A stretch of 38,147 bases of DNA from the NCBI GenBank assembly GCA_947623935.1, contig CANQIE010000009.1:1-38147 (forward strand). Reading direction: 5' to 3'. The position numbers were made by a program, and so were the translations under genes. The notes below the pieces were generated by a model. That model saw nothing but the letters and a program-made list of their open reading frames with translations. It was not told the origin of the DNA and did no database searches. This stretch comes from an uncultured Bacilli bacterium (GTDB taxonomy: Bacteria > Bacillota_I > Bacilli_A > RF39 > UBA660). Numbering within the stretch: position 1 is the first letter of the stretch; each line of letters starts with the position of its first letter. Below are positions 1 through 37,902 of the stretch, in pieces.

Positions 1-1008
1 GAGGGAACAAGCGGAGATAAAAGTACTTGCACCTTTTCAGGTAGGGTATATGATTGCTATTCAAATCCAGGAGAAATAAAAGTTAACTTTATAAGTGGAA
101 CTAGTAATATAGCAAGCAATAATTATATAGTACATCCAGCGTTTACATTTGGTGATGATGAATTAACAGGATTATGGTTTGCAAAATTTGAACCTAGTGA
201 TAAAGAAAAATGTACGATAGAAGATTATGCTATTGGAAGTGGCTGTGATAAGGATACATTTACTCCAGAAATAAAACCAAATGTGACTTCATGGAGAGGA
301 ATAAGATTAGCCACATCGTTTGTAGTATCCCGAAAAATGTCAAATGAAAACAAAATGGTATATGGCTTTGGAGACAATGTTGATACACATATGAGTAAGG
401 ATAGGGAATGGATATCCGTAGCCTACTTATCTCAAAGCCAATATGGAAAATATGGAAATGATGGAGAAGAAGTGTATATCAATAATTGCTCTCAATTGAT
501 AACAGGAATAGCAGGAGATACAGCAGGTGCAGGACAAAGTAATACTTGTACAAACACTTATGAAACTTTGAAAGGACAAAAAGCATCTACAACCGGAAAT
601 ATTACAGGAGTCTATGATATGAGTGGTGGATCATATGAACGTGTGATGGGTGTTTTAAGCAATGAAAATGGTATTCCAATTGTTACCTCTGAATCAGGAT
701 TTAATGGACTATTAAGCGATGGAAATACTGTATCAGGTAAAGTCGATCTTCCTGAACCAAAGTATTATGATTTATATGGAAAAAATGAAAATACTGCTTG
801 TAATAATGGAGCATGTCATGGATATGGCATATCGGAAACAGCAGGATGGAACAATGATTATTATATTTTTCCAAATACTTTCCCGTGGTTTCTTCGCAGC
901 GGTGCTATACACCACGGTGCTACATCAGGAGTATTCTTTCTCAGTTCCAACCATGGCCCGTCACAAAACGACGTTACATTCCGTATTGTACTTACTCCTA
1001 TTGAATAA
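1..1008 (+). CDS. Variable surface protein, paralog A (5' truncated by window edge)
   Basis: The frame is open from base 1 and ends at TAA 1006-1008, so 335 residues of a longer protein are visible. It is collinear with the C-terminal halves of the genes at 10971 and 36085: VHPAFTFG, LTGLWFAKFE, IKPNVTSWRGIR, the THMSKD/E-W block, AYLSQSQYGKYGN, INNCS, GQKASTTGNITGVYDMSGG, KYYDLY, then W-F-L-R-S-G ... SGVF ... FRIVL. The layout resembles formylglycine-generating-enzyme/C-type-lectin-like domains used as targets of diversity-generating retroelements (family knowledge; assignment is inference). Paired cysteines near KCT..GCD, NNCS and CNN..AC suggest an extracellular, disulfide-bonded fold. The N-terminus and promoter lie outside the window. 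An in-frame ATG at 283 is internal to the conserved domain and not a credible start. A terminator follows at 1032. Confidence 0.85.
   Translation, partial: EGTSGDKSTCTFSGRVYDCYSNPGEIKVNFISGTSNIASNNYIVHPAFTFGDDELTGLWFAKFEPSDKEKCTIEDYAIGSGCDKDTFTPEIKPNVTSWRGIRLATSFVVSRKMSNENKMVYGFGDNVDTHMSKDREWISVAYLSQSQYGKYGNDGEEVYINNCSQLITGIAGDTAGAGQSNTCTNTYETLKGQKASTTGNITGVYDMSGGSYERVMGVLSNENGIPIVTSESGFNGLLSDGNTVSGKVDLPEPKYYDLYGKNENTACNNGACHGYGISETAGWNNDYYIFPNTFPWFLRSGAIHHGATSGVFFLSSNHGPSQNDVTFRIVLTPIE
886..1002 (+). other. Candidate hypervariable region of paralog A (VR-A)
   Basis: The last ~38 codons from Trp 886-888 differ in composition from the gene body. By hand count about 25 of 114 bases are A and 54 of 114 are G or C. 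NNC/NNT codons abound (CAC CAC, TCC AAC CAT GGC, AAC GAC). Fixed anchors are W-F-L-R, SGVF and FRIVL; residues between them share nothing with the paralogs. This fits a DGR variable region in which template adenines (AAC codons) were randomised. It is the least extreme of the three. Confidence 0.55.
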
Positions 1009-10970: not shown

Positions 10971-12761
10971 ATGAAAGATAGAAGTAAAGTATTATTTGGA
11001 TTCGTAATGTTACTAATGGTGGTAGGAATTCTTGGTTTTAGTTATGCCATATTTACAACGAAAGTAGAAAAGAAAGGTGCACTTAATATCGTGGCAGGAA
11101 CAGTAACTTGCCCCATACAAATAGAAGGAATAGAGGGTAACCAAATTGAATTAGTAAATCAAACCGAAAAAGAAATCGAAGTAACGATAAGAAATGATAG
11201 TCAAGTACCAATACATTCAACCATTACTTATTCAAAAAATGAGAATGTAGAAGTATTAGCTTCTTCTAGTAATGGAGATCTCATAAATAAAGAAAGTTTA
11301 TCTGTAGGAGAAACAAGAACCTATACCATAAAATTAATAAATAAAACGAATACAACCCAGACAGTAACGTTAAATGGAAAATGTGGATTAAGTAATAAAA
11401 CATTAGCTATAGCAGACACAGAAGAAGAAATTACAGGAAATTATGAAAGAGTGGAACCTAATGCACCTGAATTAGTAACAGGATTAATCCCAGTTGTCTA
11501 TGATGAAAGTCAAAGCTCATGGGTAAAAGCAGATACAACAAAGAAATGGTACAACTATGACAAACAAGAATGGGCGAATGCTGTAACTATTGGATTAGAT
11601 GAAGATGGAGTAGGTACTAAGAAAAGAGAGAGTTATCAAACAGCAGAAGCAGGAACTAAAATATCAATGGATGATATCAACACAATGTGGGTATGGATAC
11701 CAAGATATGAATATAATTATGTTGCTATAAAGGCAGCCGGAGGAGAATTCACTCCCTATAGAGGGAACGACGCGGATGGGCACATACTTCCATATGGATA
11801 TTTAAAACCCGGGGAAATCATAATCAATTTTTTAAATGAAACAGATAATACACCAAGTAGTGAAAATTATAAAGTACATCCAGCGTTTAATTTTGGAGAA
11901 GATAAATTAACAGGATTATGGTTTGCAAAGTTTGATACTAGTAAGGAAGAAAATGAGTGTATTCCAGTAAACAATTCAGCAGGAACAAATTGCGATTTAG
12001 ATATATTTACTACTCAAATAAAACCAAATGTAACACCTTGGGTAGGCATACGTGTGGCAACTGCTTTTTATGTGGCACGAAAAATGCAAACAGAAAGATA
12101 TAATAATTATGGTTTTATAAATACAGATAATTATAATATTCACATTAGTAAGAATAGTGAATGGGGAGCAGTAGCCTACCTATCTCAAAGTAAGTATGGA
12201 AAATATGGAAATGATATATATGGAGAAGATGACAAAGAAGTATATATTAACAATTGTTCTAAAATGATTACAGGAATAGCGGGAGATACAGCAAGTGCAA
12301 GAGAAAGTGAAGACACTTGTAATAGAAATACCTATGAAACAGAACAAGGCCAAAAAGCATCAACAACAGGAAACATCACAGGAGTTTATGATATGAGTGG
12401 TGGAGCATGGGACATGGTAATGGGGGTAGTAAAAGATAGTGATACAAATCAACCAATAATTGAAAGAGGGTCTGGTTTTACTGCAAATGGAGGAACTAAA
12501 CCAATACCAGAAGAAAAATATTATGATTTATATACAAAGGATACTTCATCATATGTATGTAATGAGCAAGAATGTTATGGTCATGCCTTATCTGAAACGC
12601 CCAATTGGTATGGAGACTATTATGTGAAATTTTATGGTTATTGGTTCCTGCGTGGTGGTAATTTCTTCACTGCCTGGCCTTCTGGTGTCTTTGCCTCAAG
12701 CGACAACACCACCGGTACTTCGTGGGAGACCTACTCGTTTCGTTTGGTGCTTGCTCCATAA
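10971..12761 (+). CDS. Variable surface protein, paralog B
   Basis: A 596-residue exported protein. Residues 8-28 are a hydrophobic export segment. The following F-T-T-K-V-E-K-K-G-A-L-N-I-V-A-G-T-V resembles the start of mature TasA/camelysin-type proteins handled by SipW-like signal peptidase (inference). A beta-rich domain runs to about 150, then G-L-I-P-V-V-Y-D and W-Y-N-Y-D-K-Q-E-W-A-N-A-V. From about 239 (M-W-V-W-I-P-R-Y-E-Y) a formylglycine-enzyme/C-type-lectin-like domain runs to the end, with Y-D-M-S-G-G-A-W-D near 474 and a hypervariable tip at 558-596. Residues 1-235 are nearly identical to the gene at 36085; the C-terminal half diverges. AAGGAAG precedes ATG 10971. Monocistronic, with a poly-G promoter and its own terminator. 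Function is likely adhesion or ligand binding; unproven. Confidence 0.85.
   Translation: MKDRSKVLFGFVMLLMVVGILGFSYAIFTTKVEKKGALNIVAGTVTCPIQIEGIEGNQIELVNQTEKEIEVTIRNDSQVPIHSTITYSKNENVEVLASSSNGDLINKESLSVGETRTYTIKLINKTNTTQTVTLNGKCGLSNKTLAIADTEEEITGNYERVEPNAPELVTGLIPVVYDESQSSWVKADTTKKWYNYDKQEWANAVTIGLDEDGVGTKKRESYQTAEAGTKISMDDINTMWVWIPRYEYNYVAIKAAGGEFTPYRGNDADGHILPYGYLKPGEIIINFLNETDNTPSSENYKVHPAFNFGEDKLTGLWFAKFDTSKEENECIPVNNSAGTNCDLDIFTTQIKPNVTPWVGIRVATAFYVARKMQTERYNNYGFINTDNYNIHISKNSEWGAVAYLSQSKYGKYGNDIYGEDDKEVYINNCSKMITGIAGDTASARESEDTCNRNTYETEQGQKASTTGNITGVYDMSGGAWDMVMGVVKDSDTNQPIIERGSGFTANGGTKPIPEEKYYDLYTKDTSSYVCNEQECYGHALSETPNWYGDYYVKFYGYWFLRGGNFFTAWPSGVFASSDNTTGTSWETYSFRLVLAP
12642..12758 (+). 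other. Candidate hypervariable region of paralog B (VR-B)
   Basis: From the W-F-L-R-G-G codons the base composition flips: by hand count about 15 of 117 bases are A and 63 of 117 are G or C, in a gene whose body is strongly A-rich. The run GCC, AGC, GAC, AAC, ACC, ACC, then GAG ACC TAC looks like AAC codons with altered first and second bases. Constant anchors are WFLRGG, SGVF and SFRLVL. Matches the expected form of a DGR variable region at the 3' end of its target gene. Confidence 0.65.
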
Positions 12762-36084: not shown

Positions 36085-37902
36085 ATGAAAGATAGAAACA
36101 AAGTATTATTTGGATTTGTCATGTTATTAATGGTGGTAGGAATTATTGGTTTTAGTTATGCACTTTTTACTACGAAGGTAGAAAAGAAAGGTGCTTTAAA
36201 TATAGTCGCAGGAACAGTTTCTTGTCCTATACAAATAGAAGGAATAGAGGGTAATGAAATAACATTAGTAAACCAAACCGAAAAAGAAATAGAAGTAACA
36301 ATCAGAAATGATAGTAAAGTACCAATACACTCAACCATTACTTATTTAAAGAATGAGAATGTAGAAGTATTAGCATCCAATCAAAATGGAGATCCTATCA
36401 ATAAAGAAAGTCTATCTGTAGGAGAAACAAGAACCTATATGATTAAACTAATAAATAAAACAAATACAACCCAGACAGTAACGTTAAATGGAAGATGTGG
36501 ATTAAGTAATAAAACATTAGCTATAGCAGATACAGAAGAAGAAATTACAGGAAATTATGAAAGAGTGGAACCCAATGAACCTGAATTAGTAACAGGATTA
36601 ATCCCAGTTGTCTATGATGAAAGTCAAAGCTCCTGGGTAAAAGCAGATACAACAAAGAAATGGTACAACTATGACAAACAAGAATGGGCGAATGCCGTAA
36701 CTATTGGATTAGATGAAGATGGAGTAGGTACTAAGAAAAGAGAGAGTTATATGACTGCCCAGGCAGGAGAACTAATTTCAATAGATGACATTAACACCAT
36801 GTGGGTATGGATACCAAGATATGAATATAATTATGTAAGTATAAAAAATGCTGGAGGAGATAAAAGCAATTGCACAAATAGTGTTGTAAGTAATTATGAA
36901 TGCTACCTAAATCCAGGGGAAATTAAAGTCAACTTTATCAATGGAACTAGTAATACCCCAAACAATGATTATATAGTGCATCCAGCCTTTACTTTTGGAG
37001 ATAAAGAATTAACAGGAATGTGGTATGGAAAGTTTGAAACAAGTAGTAAAGAAGAATGTATCGCAGCAAGTGGTTCAGTAAATACTGAATGTGATATAGA
37101 AACGTATACTCCAGAAATAAAACCAAGTGTAACTTCATGGAGAGGAATCCGAGTATCAACTGCTTTTGAAGTAAGTAGAAGGATGCAAACAACAAATTAT
37201 AATATTTATGGATTTTCTAGTAGTCAAACCAGTTATGATACACATATGAGTAAGAATAGTGAATGGGGTGCAGTAGCCTACTTATCACAAAGTAAATATG
37301 GAAAATATGGAAATAGTAATTATGGAGTAGATGACAAAGAAGTATATATTAACAACTGTTCAAATTATATAACTGGAATAGCAGGAAATACAGTAGGTGA
37401 AAGAATAAGTGCAGAAACTTGTAAAACAAATACTTATGAAACAAGTAAAGGTCAAAAGGCATCGACGACTGGAAATATTACAGGAGTCTATGATATGAGT
37501 GGTGGAGCATGGGATCGTGTCATGGGCGCTTTGGAAGATAGTAACAATTCAGGAAAACCAACAAACACAGCATGTGGATTTTTTGAAGGTGAAAATGGTA
37601 ATAAAATACCAGACAAAAAGTATTATGATTTATATAGAAGTACTGATCGAAGTTCGACGGATGGAAACTTGTCATTAACTGCATGTGGTGAGGGAGTTTG
37701 TTATGGACATGCCTTATCAGAAACATTAGGTTGGTATGGAGATTATTATGTCTATGTAAACTATTCGGGCTCATGGTTCAATCGCGGCGGCGGCACCTAT
37801 GCCGATGCCTCGAGCACAGGTGTATTCCTCTTCTACTACGTGTATGGTGGTTCGGAGGGGGGCAGCTCGTTCCGCCTTGTGCTTTCTCCTATAGGAGCTT
37901 AA
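36085..37902 (+). CDS. Variable surface protein, paralog C
   Basis: A 605-residue exported protein, nearly identical to the gene at 10971 over the first ~235 residues: hydrophobic segment 8-28, TasA/camelysin-like G-A-L-N-I-V-A-G-T-V, and the W-Y-N-Y-D-K-Q-E-W-A-N-A-V block. The C-type-lectin/formylglycine-enzyme-like half is more diverged: W-V-W-I-P-R-Y-E-Y-N-Y, V-H-P-A-F-T-F-G, Y-D-M-S-G-G-A-W-D-R-V-M-G and C-Y-G-H-A-L-S-E-T. That half is closer to paralog A in places (N-P-G-E-I-K-V-N-F-I). The hypervariable tip is at 564-605. AGGGAAG precedes ATG 36085. It sits directly behind rpoC with its own poly-G promoter. Conserved Cys pairs fit an extracellular protein. A ligand-binding or adhesin role is inferred. 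Confidence 0.85.
   Translation: MKDRNKVLFGFVMLLMVVGIIGFSYALFTTKVEKKGALNIVAGTVSCPIQIEGIEGNEITLVNQTEKEIEVTIRNDSKVPIHSTITYLKNENVEVLASNQNGDPINKESLSVGETRTYMIKLINKTNTTQTVTLNGRCGLSNKTLAIADTEEEITGNYERVEPNEPELVTGLIPVVYDESQSSWVKADTTKKWYNYDKQEWANAVTIGLDEDGVGTKKRESYMTAQAGELISIDDINTMWVWIPRYEYNYVSIKNAGGDKSNCTNSVVSNYECYLNPGEIKVNFINGTSNTPNNDYIVHPAFTFGDKELTGMWYGKFETSSKEECIAASGSVNTECDIETYTPEIKPSVTSWRGIRVSTAFEVSRRMQTTNYNIYGFSSSQTSYDTHMSKNSEWGAVAYLSQSKYGKYGNSNYGVDDKEVYINNCSNYITGIAGNTVGERISAETCKTNTYETSKGQKASTTGNITGVYDMSGGAWDRVMGALEDSNNSGKPTNTACGFFEGENGNKIPDKKYYDLYRSTDRSSTDGNLSLTACGEGVCYGHALSETLGWYGDYYVYVNYSGSWFNRGGGTYADASSTGVFLFYYVYGGSEGGSSFRLVLSPIGA
37774..37893 (+). other. Candidate hypervariable region of paralog C (VR-C)
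   Basis: The strongest of the three composition switches. By hand count about 14 of 114 bases are A and 67 of 114 are G or C; a control stretch of the same gene (37321-37380) has 27 of 60 A and 15 of 60 G or C. Runs such as ACC TAT GCC GAT GCC and TTC CTC TTC TAC TAC are what randomised AAC/AAT codons would give. Anchors: W-F-N-R-G-G, S-T-G-V-F, S-F-R-L-V-L. Confidence 0.65.
37886..37897 (+). repeat. Perfect 12-base palindrome at the end of paralog C
   Basis: CTCCTATAGGAG, spanning the last codons of the gene just after the variable region. Paralogs A and B keep only the left half (ACTCCTATT, GCTCCATA). Confidence 0.6.

Follow-up and report, generated by a model that had tools for sequence, protein, structure and literature searches.

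To our knowledge, diversity-generating retroelements (DGRs) are the main known system of targeted hypermutation in prokaryotes, and we know of hardly any studies on the fate of a repertoire once its mutator has been lost. In Treponema denticola isolates without a core DGR, leftover targets still exhibit a bias at template adenines (PMC4891356), and in Nostoc remnant homology between template repeat (TR) and variable repeat (VR) persists at a locus without a reverse transcriptase (RT) (PMC7517822). Multi-target DGRs acting in trans have been described for Trichodesmium, with 18 TR/VR loci (PMC8867640), and for Thiohalocapsa PB-PSB1, with 15 targets (PMC10907252). For one Pseudomonas, 91 TR-VR pairs were described as atypical with few A-to-N changes (PMC6642488), for which reason this count was left out as a yardstick. 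Our literature search for work joining DGRs with RF39, the lineage of the genome used in our study, returned no paper.

The study genome (G000) is a draft assembly of 1.15 Mb in 50 contigs and is 93% complete. The window, the whole stretch of 38,147 nucleotides analysed here, contains a gene whose product consists of an N-terminal hydrophobic (transmembrane/signal) segment, a beta-rich domain and a C-terminal FGE/C-lectin-like variable-protein domain (Table 1). For positions 12642-12758, the final 39 codons of this gene, an earlier note had described an abrupt switch out of A-rich DNA with 15 A and 63 GC among 117 nt. The recount gave exactly these values (A 15, C 33, G 30, T 39). The remaining gene contains 41.5% A, and in a scan along the gene only 8 of 1672 segments of 117 nt had 15 A or fewer. 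The excess of NNC/NNT codons held as well, since 28 of the 39 codons end in C or T, as against a share of 43% elsewhere in the gene. WFLRGG, SGVF and SFRLVL, which had been taken to be constant anchors, all occur in the protein and are conserved across its paralogs. Such a sharp change in composition might also be expected from a mere GC-rich island or from recently acquired DNA. However, the tip is in frame and conserved throughout a family of about 42 members, and the TR match in the same genome refutes this explanation, to which we assign virtually no probability.

A plain nucleotide search with the VR of the window gene yielded only the self-match, and the TR was located via the tails of the paralogs instead. 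It lies on contig C2, about 130 nt 3' of the stop codon of one paralog, and has the nucleotide sequence CCGTGGTTCAAACGCGGCGGCAACTATAATGATGGCACGAATGCTGGGGTGTTCAACTTCAACAACAACAATGGCAATGCGAACAGCAACAACTCGTTCCGCCTCGTTCTTGCGCCT with the hypothetical translation PWFKRGGNYNDGTNAGVFNFNNNNGNANSNNSFRLVLAP, also written ...GVFNFNNNNGNANSNNSFRLVLAP. The TR aligns with the VRs over its full length and was the sole such copy found in the assembly. In the window gene, TR homology begins at 12639, one codon before the segment pointed out in the earlier note, and ends at 12758, making this VR one codon longer than the TR. In the paralog at 36085-37902 the nucleotide match to the TR covers positions 37774-37891.

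Table 1. Coordinates of target genes, variable repeats and template repeat in the study genome (window positions unless a contig is named).
Feature	Position	Strand	Basis or comparison
Paralogous target gene, truncated 5' by contig start	283..1008	+	family match 58-999
VR of paralog 283-1008 (L038)	883..999	+	vs TR: 29 non-A, 19 A changes
Exported target protein, 596 aa	10971..12761	+	ORF
VR of window gene, 40 codons	12639..12758	+	alignment to TR
Paralogous target gene	36085..37902	+	73% identical to 10971-12761
VR of paralog 36085-37902 (L003), 40 codons	37771..37890	+	vs TR: 18 non-A, 20 A changes
TR, noncoding, ~117 nt, AAC-rich	contig C2, 58874-58990	-	match to paralog tails

VRs and TR were compared by gapped alignment, as ungapped alignment inflated the non-A changes in VRs of other lengths. 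The statistics are based on the 36 VRs with small gaps out of 41 VRs compared. Mean mismatch to the TR was 0.63 at A columns and 0.30 at non-A columns (p 5e-10). At codon positions 1-2, 62.6% of the A columns but only 16.3% of the non-A columns were mismatched, a difference that not one permutation out of 20,000 attained (p = 5e-5). Because this test is restricted to codon positions 1-2, a silent third-position effect is removed. The VR of the window gene taken alone is changed at 21 of 31 template A and at 30 of 86 non-A positions, 20 of the latter 30 being located at codon position 3 (Fisher p 0.0016; p 6.5e-5 for codon positions 1-2 only). The genome thus holds a TR as anticipated in the earlier note, although the mismatches are not found only at template A as had been supposed. 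The noncoding TR matching a 3'-terminal VR and the concentration of mismatches at template adenines are as in DGR targets. Faithful copying of non-A template positions, which would point to recent homing, was not observed in any of the 41 VRs compared.

Alternatively it might be that no DGR was involved and that the tips of a paralogous surface-protein family diverged via positive selection and gene conversion. The many non-A changes and the one-codon length difference of the window VR as well as the large size of the paralog family would fit such a history. It is nevertheless strongly disfavoured and in our view highly improbable, since it conflicts with the presence of a noncoding AAC-rich template copy in the genome, with changes tracking template adenines within codon positions 1-2, and with the homologous TR beside RT and Avd in the same genus and the A-only TR/VR pairs in relatives described below.

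Compared with its own genome, the window protein gave 47 matched stretches, corresponding to about 42 to 43 target loci after merging pieces belonging to one gene. A distinct, alignable VR was obtained from 41 of these loci. The earlier note had suspected a set of diversified surface proteins; such a family exists, but with about 42 genes it is far bigger than this wording implied. The summed open frames of the targets amount to ~75 kb. There were no in-frame stops inside the family matches, and two members (C40, C13) look frameshifted, each being matched in two frames. The C-terminal domain is common to the target subfamilies, whereas their N-termini differ. Three target copies are located within the window (Table 1), the first of which has the tail ...SGVF...TFRIVLTPIE*. 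Five tandem paralogs of ~290 aa (MDDFELTIL...FWTSS...GILPVLVPS) with variable inner segments are encoded on the minus strand of C2 (L046:2315-6662). A Pfam search of two of the five gave no match, and they are another expanded family apart from the VR targets.

The Pfam family PF03781 (FGE-sulfatase) matched the window protein below the threshold (19.5 bits, cut-off 23.3). The structure was modelled for residues 161-596 (pTM 0.84), with the VR loop residues at low confidence. The best PDB match of this model was the DGR variable protein TaqVP of Thermus aquaticus (5vf4, E 8.9e-7), and three 5vf4 chains were the only significant PDB matches. Phage tail collar and sulfatase-modifying-factor-like proteins are among the viral matches. 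A fold search with the model of the full-length protein, which was poor, gave nothing significant, and an HMM search of the PDB using the family profile gave no match. With TaqVP as best match and the weak PF03781 hit, these results place the VR, whose own residues are of low confidence in the model, in a C-type-lectin/FGE-like fold and agree with the C-type-lectin/formylglycine-enzyme-like domain proposed earlier. The architecture, with export and a membrane anchor, is suggestive of ligand binding outside the cell. In the most likely reading, the window protein is anchored in the membrane and binds extracellularly, with the VR as ligand surface.

A DGR cassette with RT and Avd was found in the same genus. 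G003 (CANRHM01) is a MAG, presumably from rabbit gut judging from the isolate name 'Lapin', and carries on a 3.1-kb contig, in this order, the end of a target gene, leader, TR, 3' flank, a MutS domain I protein, Avd and RT. From VR tail via leader and TR to the 3' flank, this locus shows 92% identity to the C2 locus of the study genome over 506 nt. Avd of G003 matched NF033474 with 80.3 bits (cut-off 80) and PF22296 with 72.9 bits (cut-off 40). The RT matched PF00078, and its best PDB match was 8ub7, a reverse transcriptase of 328 aa which we take to be the Bordetella phage DGR RT (E 2e-47, compared to 2e-12 for group II intron RTs). In the 39 assembled nt of the cognate VR of G003, every difference to the TR is at a template A. 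Relative to the one assembled TR, the VRs of G003 have 8-44 non-A differences (median 18). G001, another genome of the genus, contains two DGR-type RT loci, C92 and C79 (L051, L052, L101, L102), on small contigs. The TR at C92 comprises the 3' part only, with unrelated sequence in place of the 5' part, and this cassette may have a truncated template. In G002, likewise of the same genus, neither targets nor RT were found. Group II intron RTs in G001 and G003 (L047, L048, L049) are not DGR RTs and were set aside. In cassettes of the genus, a MutS domain I gene (PF01624) is located directly upstream of Avd and RT (L050:391-861, L051:2731-3117). Taken together, the TR in the same genome, the adenine-biased mismatches, the RT and Avd at a homologous TR in the same genus and the fold match to TaqVP bear out the DGR origin claimed for the tip.

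In the assembly of the study genome itself, profile searches for RVT_1 (PF00078) and Avd (PF22296) and a search for homologues of the G003 RT were empty at E<=10, while the RVT_1 model gave matches in control genomes, G001 and G003. RT and Avd, which belong to a complete, autonomous DGR, were accordingly not detected in the 93% complete assembly. On C2, a contig of 77 kb, similarity to G003 ends exactly where the G003 operon begins, and the TR 3' flank is followed by housekeeping genes (putative yqfC/yqfD-like, named by sequence and position) with no operon. On C18, a target gene runs straight into the TR 3' flank and then into the first ten codons of the MutS_I gene, which end in a stop (VSKLYNKYLE*) and are followed by DNA located downstream of the RT in G003. 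The end of C16 shares 155 bases with this sequence and carries on into the flank located downstream of the RT. These 155 identical bases, including the operon scar, are found at two contig ends (C18:1-460 and C16:24850-25096), suggesting that C18 and C16 may be genomic neighbours. The scar corresponds to the loss of MutS_I, Avd and RT by a deletion of ~1.8 kb, at one locus or two.

The VRs point in the same direction. Among the 41 aligned VRs the lowest number of non-A changes was 13, and the cognate VR beside the C2 TR had 15. The fewest non-A changes in any 80 nt were 8 in the study genome, 2 in G003 and 0 in relatives. Because the VRs of the RT-bearing G003 carry many non-A differences too, such differences might also derive from an unseen second TR or from older homing. 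A complete DGR has a hairpin/cruciform just downstream of the VR, and for BPP-1 Guo et al. showed that efficient homing depends on such a hairpin (PMC3240598). The window VR lacks this structure. In all 7 relatives with a readable VR tail a short hairpin is located at the stop codon, and a short GTAAGCGACTTAC is retained at L046 and L020. With empty RVT_1 and Avd searches, the operon scar and the non-A differences of the window VR, the live, strictly adenine-specific system implied by the earlier note was not recovered in this genome. Most likely, DGR activity has been lost and a large repertoire is now frozen.

An active DGR would require an intact RT/Avd operon in the unassembled ~7% of the genome, acting in trans from the C2 template. 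The 92% identity of C2 TR, leader and 3' flank to the RT-bearing G003, the 93% completeness of the assembly, the two RT cassettes on small contigs in G001 and the trans diversification reported in another system (PMC10907252) are in favour of this possibility. In relatives the RT is found on contigs of 3-6 kb, which could be lost in binning. We nevertheless consider a still active DGR unlikely. The C2 TR is located inside its 77-kb contig with no operon adjoining, all aligned VRs including the TR-adjacent one have at least 13 non-A changes compared to none in 80 nt in cognate pairs of relatives, and both the deletion scar at C18/C16 and the missing hairpin argue against it. That the window tip is the VR of a DGR target, whose RT operon has since been deleted leaving the tips frozen, is the explanation we hold to be quite probable.

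According to this deletion scenario, which follows established DGR biology for the past homing, an error-prone RT, assisted by Avd and an accessory resembling MutS domain I, would have copied RNA of the ~117-nt noncoding TR, with random bases placed opposite template adenines during reverse transcription. The cDNA would then have replaced the 3' ends of surface-protein genes scattered over the genome. All of the about 42 targets would apparently have been supplied in trans from the single surviving template. Mutagenesis of this kind turns AAY into NNY codons. Among these the TAY-type tyrosine codons alone resemble stop codons, and since no NNY codon terminates translation, the reading frames would have stayed open. 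After deletion of the RT operon the tips would be frozen and drift like ordinary genes, their reading frames being kept.

Homologous targets were detected in 52 of 117 genomes of the same family, with highest first-look counts of 70, 49 and 37. RTs at least 50% identical to that of G003 occur in ~16 of the same-family genomes, a comparison limited by draft completeness. In relatives with similar RTs, many cognate TR/VR pairs differ at 9-22 template A and at no other position in 80 nt. These A-only pairs are located in the same WFxRGG...AGVF...FRLVL domain, which ties this domain family to adenine-specific diversification. Several target-rich genomes lack such an RT (e.g. G048, G027, G033) or have a DGR RT homologue broken by in-frame stops (e.g. 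G030:C13:1416-2207 and G096:C61:4151-5013), which suggests repeated loss of the diversifier. Tentatively, and with slightly less confidence than an even balance would imply, we propose that in a family of small-genome gut Bacilli one template can serve tens of dispersed surface genes, similar to an antibody repertoire, and that its lineages lose the diversifier time and again but retain the diversified library as fixed genes under selection, a domestication of the frozen repertoire. Since sister genomes range from those with RT and ~30 targets to those with no targets, active and frozen repertoires can be compared inside one genus. Large DGR repertoires will escape screens that demand an RT or a low number of non-A changes. 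The study genome spends ~6.5% of its 1.15 Mb on ~42 DGR-written surface genes.

With cellular DGRs of the type of TvpA (T. denticola) and TaqVP (T. aquaticus), the study genome shares the TR/VR pair, the adenine bias and a 3'-end VR in an exported CLec/FGE-like protein, the structure being closest to TaqVP. The Avd and RT cassette is shared by its relatives, in which, unlike in the TvpA/TaqVP type, a MutS_I-like gene precedes Avd. A further difference is the number of ~42 targets in 1.15 Mb, combined with an apparently lost RT. In keeping VR traces the study genome resembles the RT-less T. denticola genomes and the RT-less Nostoc locus. These remnants comprise up to seven genes in T. denticola and one gene in Nostoc compared to ~42, and in contrast to them the study genome has retained TR and leader and shows an operon scar. 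Dispersed remote targets are common to Trichodesmium, Thiohalocapsa PB-PSB1 and the study genome, whose repertoire is larger, is encoded in a much smaller genome and consists of one homogeneous target family. Two features are unusual here, a repertoire so large for its genome and a diversifier that has visibly been lost from beside a template that was kept.
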